DNA of 64,000 nt from Syncephalastrum monosporum B8922 (lineage: Eukaryota > Mucoromycota > Mucoromycetes > Mucorales > Syncephalastraceae). The notes beneath the pieces are model-generated. The model was not told the DNA's origin. It did no database searches and was given only the letters and a program-made list of their open reading frames with translations. Positions 1,886 to 25,732 of the stretch are shown one piece after another. The stretch is from NCBI GenBank assembly GCA_000697355.1, contig JNEN01001246.1, positions 1-64,000 on the forward strand, read 5' to 3'. Both the position numbers and the translations under genes were made by a program. The stretch's first letter is position 1; the number at the start of each line of letters is the position of its first letter.

Positions 1886-2815
1886 GCAAAAGGTAAGCGT
1901 ATAGCATAACCAAAGTAACCATATTAGCTACTTATATTATATCTGCATCGCTGACAGGGGCACAACGATAGTCGGGCGGACGCATCAAATCGAACGGCGA
2001 CTGAGTACGAGGGAACAACAACGACAGAACAACTCCACAGACGAACAACACGGGAACATTGTACGAATAGGTATGTCATTGAATGTACCTGCACATCATA
2101 TCAAATGCTTATCCAGTCATAATTCTCTTCACTGATAGTACGCAGAAACGAATCCAAAGCACACCACCACACTACCGCATTTGGCGGAAAGGTCTCCATA
2201 TGCCACGTATCGTGGGTTCCGGCATGCGGTCCTTCTAATCTCGACATGGACATTGGTGCTGAGGACAAGAAAGCTGGATGGTGGCGACCTGTTCCGCGAG
2301 CGTGACCATCGCAACCTATTCTTTATGCGCGGCGACATATCCAACGCCTTGCTTTAGTTGTTCTCTCCTCGATTATCCTTTGGAGAACCTTTTGGAATGG
2401 AGGCACCTTTAAGAAGGTAAAGCACACCGCGGTTGACATGACAATGATTATTAACTTGATTTCCATAGAGCATGTACCATATCTGTTTTCGGCGCTCCTG
2501 TACATACTGCTTGCGTTGGCTTTCCAGCTACATGCATTCCGAGCTCATAGCTGTGCTCTGCTCGGGTGGACACACTGCTCTCTGGATCGAACCTCATCGG
2601 CTGCTCTACTCATCTCGGCTGGCTGCAACAACGACGAAAAAAAGAAAAAAGAAAAAAGAAAAAAGAAAAAAGAAAAAAGAAAAAAGAAAAAAGAAAAAGA
2701 AAACACGTCGTCTGGCCCAGACATTACATGGTAAGCACTGATGACTGCTCATTGATATGATCATTCTCTAAATCCATCATTGTTCAATGTCCTGCTTAGG
2801 TCACCGGACAAGGTA
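1886..2815 (+). pseudogene. Diverged tandem duplication, copy 2
   Basis: Second unit of the tandem duplication. It repeats the landmarks of copy 1 in the same order: GTAAGCGTATAGC...CTGACAG (about 1892-1958), GTATGTCATTGAATG...CTGATAG (about 2070-2139), GTAAAGCAC...TTCCATAG (about 2417-2468) and GTAAGCACTGATGACTG...CTGCTTAG (about 2731-2800). The A-rich tract of copy 1 is expanded here to a long AAAAAAG repeat. Exon stretches of the two copies prefer different frames, and a TAG interrupts the best one near 2355, so it is a pseudogene unless RNA shows otherwise. Confidence 0.6.
2637..2700 (+). repeat. (AAAAAAG)n-like microsatellite
   Basis: About nine A5-6G units in a row. The duplicated unit upstream carries a shorter A/G tract at the matching place (about 1731-1765), so the array predates the duplication and has since changed length. 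Confidence 0.85.
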
Positions 2816-2854
2816 GACGGACACATGCATCAAAGTCCCTTTCTACGACGAAGA

Positions 2855-3010
2855 TCTATTGGAAAGCGTCGTCCGGCCCAGACATTACATGGTAAGCAAA
2901 TATGACAGTTGATTTGCATAGTCAGGCGCTGATTCCATCATTGTTCAATGCCTTGTTTAGGCCACCGGACATGGTAGACGGACACATACATCAAAAGTCA
3001 CCCTCTACAA
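2855..3010 (+). pseudogene. Partial third copy of the tandem unit
   Basis: Repeats only the 3' module of the duplicated unit: the AGACATTACATG donor flank at 2880-2890, a 70-nt intron-like GTAAGCAAATATGAC...GTTTAG, and the following CACCGGACATGGTAGACGGACAC exon-like stretch. The same module is at about 1780-1870 and 2720-2820, which gives three copies of this part against two of the rest. Confidence 0.6.
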
Positions 3011-23120: not shown

Positions 23121-24859
23121 ATGCAGGACATTGTACGTATTCAACCATACGCTCGATTCAGTTCTTTTACTCTTTACTCACTTTACATTAGCCCGATTCT
23201 GAACCATGGCGTACCATTGAGCTGGGCCGTGACCATGAATTTCGTTTCGAAGTCGAGTTCAACCAAAAGGTGCAGATCAAGGTAAGCAGAATGGACAAGT
23301 CAAGAACGATCTCTATCCTCTTGAGCTCACGCTGGCCTATCAACAAGCTTGTCAAAGGCACGGCTGAGATCTTTGGTACCGAGATCGCAGAGGGTGTGGT
23401 TTACAACTTTAGTGGTCGAAAAGCAGCCGCGTATACGTGGCACGGATGTATACTGGATATATCCTTTTTTTTTTTTTTTTTTACAAGTGTATACACGTGT
23501 AGAATATGAACTCACGCTGACCTGACGCGTTCATGCACTGCTGTCTTCTATCCCATCCTTAACTCGTTCCTACGTCCGTGGAAACTTCCTAGTAGAATAC
23601 ACGGCCAACGAGACGCCGATGACGAGCTACCTCAACCTACACCTGACACTCGAGCATATGCGCGACCTGGCACGAAGACAGACCGAGATGGGTCCTCGCG
23701 TAAGGATGGAGACACACGCAATACATATCGAACTTTGAGACGTGCTCACACGCCTGAAAGGTACTGGTGGTGGGTCCGCATGATGTCGGCAAATCGTCGT
23801 TGTGCAAGATCCTTGTCAGCTACGCACTGCGCCAAAGCGAAAAGCCAATGTATATTTCCCTGGATACCTCCGAGGGCACGTTCACCATGCCGGGATCCAT
23901 GACAGCCACCTCGATCAGCCACATCATCGATGTCGAAGAAGGCTTTGGCTCCTCCGCCACGACGGCCGGCGTCGGCTCGTCGACGATGCCTCTCGCGTAC
24001 TACTACGGCTACGAATCGCCTGCTGAAAATACCAAGCTATACAAGATGCTCATCTCCAGACTCGCGCAGGCGGTCCGTGCGCGCGTGGCGGTAGATGACA
24101 AGACGCGAACGTCCGGTTTTATTATCGACACCACCGGCTTGATTGATCACGTCGGATACGACCTTATCCAGCACGCGATTGAAGAGTTCCAGGGTAAATT
24201 CGAGATACATGATAGATACGTCAGCTGGACAAGCCGACTGAATCAGCTATCTTTTAGTGGACGTGGTGGTGGTTCTGGGCCACGAGCGATTATACAGCGA
24301 TATGCTTCGGCTGCACCGAGACCGGCCTGGGATTGCAGCGATTGTGAAGCTGACCAAGTCGGGCGGCGTGGTCGAACGCGACCGGCAGTTCAAAGTGCAG
24401 CTCCAGCGCAGCAAGATACAAGAGTACTTTTACGGCACGCCCAAATGCGAGCTCTCTCCGTACTCGATGCTGGTGGGTTTCGATGAGGTCAAGATCTGGC
24501 GCGTGGGCGAAGCGCTGGCGCCGTCGTCTGCACTGCCGCTCGGCATGGAGAGCAGCGAATCGGAAACACAGATCGTCAAGGTGGATGCGATGGACATGTG
24601 TCTGCACTCGATCCTGGGTATCATCGACGCCAAAGAGGGCGACCCTGAATCCAGGCTGCTGGAAAAGAACGTGATCGGATTCATCTATGTGTATGTACGA
24701 GGGAGAGGGATACAGACGAATAGGAAAGGCTCACGTTTTTTGCAATGCAGATCCGAAGTAGACGAGGAAAAGCAGAAGATGACGATTCTCTCGCCAGCAC
24801 CTGGCCGCCTGCCGCGTATCCACCTGTTGATGGGCGCGTTCAAATGGATGGAGACATAA
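23121..24859 (+). CDS. CLP1: Polynucleotide 5'-hydroxyl kinase / mRNA 3'-end factor CLP1
   Basis: Orthologue of CLP1, a subunit of cleavage and polyadenylation factor IA (and, in animals, a 5'-OH RNA kinase in tRNA splicing). The short first exon codes MQDI and splices (23133-23191) to PDSEPWRTIELGRDHEFRF, the start of the N-terminal domain. The P-loop GPHDVGKSS is near 23771-23800, followed by PMYISLDTSEGTFTMPGSM, the kinase-type core region, VEEGFGSS, VDVVVVLGHERLY, KSGGVVERD, EYFYGTP and a C-terminal domain ending SPAPGRLPRIHLLMGAFKWMET. The Lys and Ser of the P-loop are intact, so ATP binding is likely; kinase activity is not shown. About seven exons. One of them is bounded by an apparent AT-AC intron (23459-23573, listed separately). 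AATAAA overlaps the stop codon. EMC8/9 starts 93 bp downstream on the same strand. Confidence 0.95.
23459..23573 (+). other. Candidate U12-type AT-AC intron in CLP1
   Basis: The 115-nt intron begins ATATCCTTTTTT, an exact match to the minor-spliceosome AT-AC donor consensus (ATATCCTT), and ends with TAC. TCCTTAACT, an exact U12 branch-site consensus, is at 23556-23564, with its adenosines 11-12 nt before the intron end. Removal joins GAT to GTC in frame, giving WHGCILD|VRGNFLVEYTANETPM, which aligns without gaps to the human CLP1 region WQGCSLQL...KDTPM as I recall it. No GT-AG pair in the same stretch restores that length. Between donor and branch site lies a T18 run. Confidence 0.85.
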
Positions 24860-24952: not shown

Positions 24953-25732
24953 ATGTCAACGATTACAGTGGCGGCAGACGCGTATGCTTTACCTCTTTTG
25001 CACGCAGCAAAATACCCTCATGAGCAAGTGTGCGGTGTGCTTCTCGGCGAGATCACGCCTCAGGGCGCCATCCACCTCAAGACGGGCATTCCCTTGTTCC
25101 ATCATTGGACGTCCCTGACTCCCATGCTCGAAGTCGCTCTTCGACAGGTACCTTAGTGCCGGGTACAAGCTACATGTACTTACTGAGAATAGGCGGATCT
25201 GTATGCTGCTGGCAAGCAACTCCACGTCGTAGGCTGGTATCAGGCCAACGCAGACGAACGCGATTCCAATCTGCACGAGACCGCGATTCGGATTGCCAAC
25301 ACCATTCGAAAGAACGCAGGCCAAGCCGTCATATTCAACGTAAGCCAGTCGAGTCCTCTGACCGTACATTTGTATTGACATCCGTCTTTTGTAGGTGAAC
25401 AACCGACGCCTCGCCCACCTGGAAGATATGGCCCAGGAGAACCCTATCGTGGTACGTGTGTCTGTGTCTGGCGTTCGATCGTTCATGTCGTGCTTATGGT
25501 GATGATGACGATGATGATGATATAGCCGTATGTTTTTGATACCAACGCCTGGGTGGGCGTCAAGAACCCATTCTCGGACAAGAGCTCAGTGACGCTGACC
25601 TACGACGAGACATACGCCAAAGTGCGAGGGATGATCAGCTCAGCCAAGTATAACCAGCTGTATGACTTCGATGACCATCTCGATTCCGTCCAACACGACT
25701 GGCTGGCCTACCCCAACTCCAGTAGCAAGTAA
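24953..25732 (+). CDS. EMC8: ER membrane protein complex subunit 8/9
   Basis: Subunit of the EMC, which inserts tail-anchored and multi-pass proteins into the ER membrane. The protein (about 200 residues) is an MPN-type fold without a JAMM metal site: MSTITVAADAYALPLLHAAKYP, EQVCGVLLGE, LFHHWTSLTPMLEVALRQ, then VVGWYQANADERD and YVFDTNAWVGVKNPFS. Introns lie at about 25148-25193, 25340-25394 and 25452-25525. Fungi usually have one gene for the EMC8/EMC9 pair, so the symbol stands for that single orthologue. It follows CLP1 closely and converges with the lectin gene (110 bp between stops). Confidence 0.92.

Follow-up and report, generated by a model that had tools for sequence, protein, structure and literature searches.

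The third intron of the CLP1 gene in a Mucorales fungus is, judging from its sequence, very probably (about 93%) a U12-type AT-AC intron, removed by the minor spliceosome. It lies in a 64-kb stretch of DNA (the window), part of an assembly of 27.5 Mb in 198 contigs, and the type and coordinates proposed for it in the initial annotation are borne out by its motifs, its termini and the reading frame left by its excision. The same annotation had named the gene as CLP1, a pre-mRNA 3'-end processing factor, and its host as an early-diverging fungus, and a number of results agree with both: firstly, the joined exons make 1314 nt, or 437 codons and a stop, and their translation is identical to the 437-residue query protein; secondly, the Pfam families CLP1_N, CLP1_P and Clp1 all score over their cut-offs in this product, and its residues 6–435 align with human Clp1 (8hmy) at 5.3e-103; thirdly, a tree of 26 CLP1 sequences places the query inside the Mucorales, grouped with 21 mucoralean rows at a support of 100/99, with Umbelopsis outside. 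Among the 120 homologues listed, of 920 found, the closest are Mucorales CLP1s (Radiomyces, 72% identity; Lichtheimia, 74%), and none is near-identical. The five other introns of the gene are all GT-AG and measure 59–66 nt.

Table 1. Features of the CLP1 gene and of its predicted minor intron, in window positions.
Feature	Position	Strand	Description	Basis
CLP1 coding region	23121..24859	+	seven exons, stop included	gene call by translation, Pfam, human Clp1
CLP1 exons	23121-23132, 23192-23281, 23348-23458, 23574-23699, 23761-24193, 24258-24690, 24751-24859	+		
Predicted U12-type AT-AC intron (CLP1 intron 3)	23459..23573	+	115 nt, phase 0	
5' splice site ATATCCTTT	23459..23467	+	exact U12-type donor	
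T run, 18 T	23465..23482	+	directly behind ATATCC	
Branch site TCCTTAAC	23556..23563	+	adenosines 23561 and 23562	
3' splice site AC	23572..23573	+	end of terminal TAC	

The signals of intron 3 follow one another in the order ATATCC, T run, branch site TCCTTAAC and terminal TAC. Its donor, ATATCCTTTTTT, begins at 23459, where ATATCCTTT satisfies the U12-type consensus ATATCCTT, and the branch site likewise matches the minor-spliceosome consensus exactly, as had been claimed. U12-type branch sites of the form TCCTTRAC usually lie ~10–15 nt from the intron 3' end, and the branch adenosines of CLP1 intron 3, 12 and 11 nt from its last base, fall within that range. The distance of 11–12 nt first given for the branch adenosines is right when counted from the last intron base (23573), but not from the terminal TAC, whose T is 10 and 9 nt away; the original wording was inexact by the length of the TAC itself. 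On its two strands the window holds 11 RTATCCTT and 7 TCCTTRAC sites, and only in CLP1 intron 3 does a TCCTTRAC follow an RTATCCTT donor within 400 nt. The donor and branch pattern in reversed form occurs 4 times in 27.5 Mb, a rate of ~0.01 per 64 kb before the AC distance and a restored frame are required.

With the intron excised, GAT is followed by GTC in phase 0, so that TWHGCILD runs directly into VRGNFLVEYTANETPM, and this junction aligns to human Clp1 without a gap. We scored against three Mucorales CLP1s every splice in this region that removes at least 30 nt, begins at 23400–23559, ends at or before 23639 and keeps the frame open (n = 4108). The AT-AC splice scored 942 against a maximum of 943, ranking 4th of 4108 and first among those with canonical termini; three splices at 943 and two more at 942 are all shifted by 1–3 bases from the AT-AC pair, and their termini belong, to our knowledge, to no known intron class. 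The AT-AC splice restores the conserved protein, as the initial annotation had held. An ordinary GT-AG intron, beside which the AT-AC signals would be coincidental, is highly improbable: although the best such splice (23487–23592) leaves the frame open, and at least one public model, that of Zychaea with ISFFSIEY, looks like such a choice, it is the best of all GT-AG or GC-AG splices and yet ranks only 1181st of 4108 (847 against 942 for the AT-AC splice); where a conserved strand should stand, it puts ISFFFFFFT, encoded by the T run. This is the loss of conserved residues that had been predicted for a GT-AG intron here. In most Mucorales proteins among the homologues listed, by contrast, this strand is clean, just as after AT-AC splicing.

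AT-AC termini by themselves do not settle the class of an intron, and U2-type AT-AC introns carry a U2-like donor. Removal of the CLP1 intron by the major (U2) spliceosome would be compatible with our failure to find U12 and U4atac in the genome with Rfam models and motif patterns; it is nevertheless less probable still than a GT-AG intron, since donor and branch are U12-type to the letter, and since U11 and U6atac genes are present. Equally improbable is a decaying gene or an assembly error with no functional intron, for while the length of the 18-T run in the assembly may deviate from the true genome, that length touches neither the motifs nor the spliced frame, and the remaining exons show no damage, with conservation extending over 437 aa.

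The minor-spliceosome machinery, whose complete absence the initial annotation would have taken as refutation, is represented at least by two RNA genes: U11 (C183:461390-461530) scored 77 bits against an Rfam cut-off of 39, and U6atac (C173:105472-105600) 54.2 bits against 33, while all matches to these two models in bacterial and archaeal control genomes fell under the cut-offs. The U6atac model had 12 matches in the genome, the four ranking next after U6atac being ordinary U6. Four ordinary U6 genes (L003, L004, L005, L006) form two pairs of equal score (82.9 and 80.0 bits). The other two RNAs for which a search had been proposed were not found. For U12, the Rfam model RF00007 gave no match at E values up to 10 (42 of 1191 candidates scored), and each of three motif patterns stayed at background: GAGTAAGGAAAATAACG with up to two mismatches matched 10 times (15 in the reversed control), AGTAAGGA followed by ATTTTTG 7 times (control 11), and AGTAAGGA followed by AATTTT 12 times (control 17). 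A cmscan of 28 of the 29 U12-motif loci, omitting one (L056) that occupies the same place as L045, likewise identified no U12. We set aside one of these motif loci, L050 (G000:C58:94027-94087, minus strand), in which ATGAGTAAGGA precedes AATTTTTT, with what may be a short stem between them, a shape recalling the U12 reported for Lichtheimia; Rfam does not support it, and we do not claim it as U12. For U4atac, the search of the genome with RF00618 found no gene, a match at 24.3 bits proving to be an ordinary U4 at 102.8 bits, and a pattern built by complementarity to the genome's own U6atac matched 3 times against 1 in the control. The CENATAC profile (PF14968) had no match in the genome, but none in the control either.

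A separate observation concerns locus L055, at 442–961 on its minus strand (G000:C154, ~305–308 kb, on a contig of at least 694 kb), where two stretches of large-subunit rRNA stand out of context, one matching model positions 2394–3000 (279.6 bits) and the other 59–103 (43 bits). They may stem from mitochondrial DNA inserted into the nuclear genome.

Beyond CLP1, a strict pattern (TATCCTT, 31–91 nt, TCCTTRAC) matched 20 times across the 27.5 Mb, against 4 times for the same pattern reversed. Ten of the 20 were judged by eye to be minor introns (L013, L014, L018, L020, L022–L026 and L029, with L025 being that of CLP1), a number that is a floor, as it covers one spacing range and exact motifs only. 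Nine of these start with AT and one, L029, is GT-AG, an excess of AT seen in small numbers. For seven of the nine, AC yields the longest open splice or the sole one; L018 and L023 could use AG too. Splicing at AC restores PPME1 (1.9e-12) in the AT-starting L020 (C155:138303-138377) and importin-9 (3.6e-5) in the AT-starting L024 (C167:197384-197471). Support is weaker for six others: matches across the junction of L013 and L029 stay under the domain cut-off, with no PDB match, L022 has a CNH match under cut-off that starts behind the junction, and no family matches L014, L023 or L026. The other ten matches (L010, L011, L012, L015, L016, L017, L019, L021, L027 and L028) were dropped by eye because their first base was not A or G, the T tract was absent or no sensible spliced frame resulted; all ten carry TCCTTGAC, while all eight strict matches with TCCTTAAC were retained. 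With a relaxed pattern there were 37 matches against 24 in its control; on this ground we treat the TATCTTTT class as background, and our counts come from the strict pattern only. One further locus, L082 (C174:92582), contains both ATATCCTTTTT and CCCTTAAC but has no clean AT-AC splice, and was excluded from the ten.

Minor introns are known in animal voltage-gated channels. L018 (G000:C149:33676-33756) is an AT-starting minor-type intron in a voltage-gated-channel-like gene, where an Ion_trans match over cut-off (1.8e-6) spans the junction and the PDB channel 4dxw matches at 0.0013.

The T tract behind the donor may aid pairing with U11. In the ten minor introns and L082 the run behind RTATCC is 4–18 long (median 6), as against 1–4 at a further 21 RTATCCT sites in the window, a comparison that is partly circular, as the strict pattern demands two T and the tract was itself a selection criterion; the eight strict matches with TCCTTAAC, selectable without regard to the run, all show at least four T. 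Both the U11 and the U6atac gene hold bases complementary to the CLP1 donor, and U11 starts with AAAAAGG, the exact complement of CCTTTTT, that is, of CC and the first five T. We propose that U11 would pair through these bases with the donor and U12 with the branch site, that U6atac (AAAGGA) would next take over TCCTTT, and that cleavage would follow at AT and AC. Full-length CLP1 would then depend on the minor spliceosome.

The position of the intron is probably old. The comparison of orthologues suggested earlier was made on protein models, in the alignment of the 120 listed homologues with Dikarya assigned from names, and revealed both breaks and read-through peptides at the junction. Deletions of at least 5 residues span it in up to 15 of 101 non-Dikarya rows and in none of 19 Dikarya rows; six of the 120 models begin just behind it. 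Several of the models broken here belong to Glomeromycotina (Gigaspora, Ambispora, Cetraspora, Dentiscutata, Funneliformis and Diversispora), and these lack the residues behind TWH. Near residue 256, an ordinary GT-AG intron disrupts models too, in up to 8 of 101 rows, so that broken models alone prove little. Read-through peptides carry more weight: in the models of Zychaea (TLE-ISF-FSIEY) and of the chytrid Polyrhizophydium (VLQ-ISF-SFYIEY), the ISF right behind the junction is what ATATCCTTT would translate to, and an odd stretch in the Apophysomyces model ends right before the junction in SLTIPN, as TCCTTAACC...AAC would encode. Back-translation of this peptide (TCC TTA ACC ATH CCN AAC) would place a branch site 11 nt ahead of an AC terminus, but as it is degenerate, the evidence from read-throughs is indirect. 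Together, these breaks and read-throughs in early-diverging fungi suggest that the position is shared by at least some other Mucorales and a chytrid. Many Mucorales models have a clean junction, the intron being either correctly annotated or lost.

The rarity of minor introns in fungi, as first stated, was overstated: they have been described from Phycomyces, Rhizopus, Rhizophagus, Basidiobolus and chytrids, and the CLP1 intron adds to those already published for Mucorales, Glomeromycotina and chytrids. One study reports their loss from Ascomycota and Basidiomycota, with no convincing cases there, and describes them in the early-diverging Rhizophagus irregularis, Basidiobolus meristosporus and chytrids, where, as here, they persist, some at positions common to other kingdoms (PMC10639083); a review agrees in brief on this distribution (PMC8199999). 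The former gives counts of 205 and 249, far more than here, and all four minor snRNAs in Rhizophagus, as compared to two in our genome (PMC10639083). Closer relatives are the Mucorales Phycomyces blakesleeanus and Rhizopus oryzae, for which minor snRNAs are reported, along with minor introns of both the AT-AC and the GT-AG type that carry the motifs seen here; Phycomyces has 8–9 AT-AC with 8–12 GT-AG and Rhizopus 1 with 2–3, whereas nine of our ten strict candidates start with AT, and the available account of those introns does not name CLP1 (PMC2846911). In the open-licence literature, at the level of main texts, we found no minor intron in a fungal CLP1; one may stand in a published table.

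The partial set of minor snRNAs also has precedents. Lichtheimia corymbifera is described, like our fungus, as having U11 and a U6atac, there divergent, with U4atac not detected, and differs in an atypical U12 without stem III (PMC4133162); in Apophysomyces, U6atac was reported and U12 and U4atac were not found (PMC5604411). These reports suggest that mucoralean versions of U12 and U4atac may evade the standard models. A bolder scenario, which we consider unlikely as a whole, is that a small set of minor introns has drifted almost wholly to AT starts with a stretched U11 match, the T tract, that U12 and U4atac have gone or become too changed for standard models, and that the CLP1 intron is a survivor from before the chytrid–Mucorales split.

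A well-supported minor intron is hereby added in a fungal RNA-processing gene. As automatic annotation seems to break repeatedly at its position, errors there are probable in some of the public CLP1 models for early-diverging fungi. Fungi whose minor introns are few and near-uniform would suit studies of what in the minor spliceosome is able to change or vanish, and of why the last such introns persist.

Downstream of CLP1, the next gene on the forward strand (24953–25732) appears by eye to contain several GT-AG introns, and its product presumably resembles EMC8/EMC9, again by eye.
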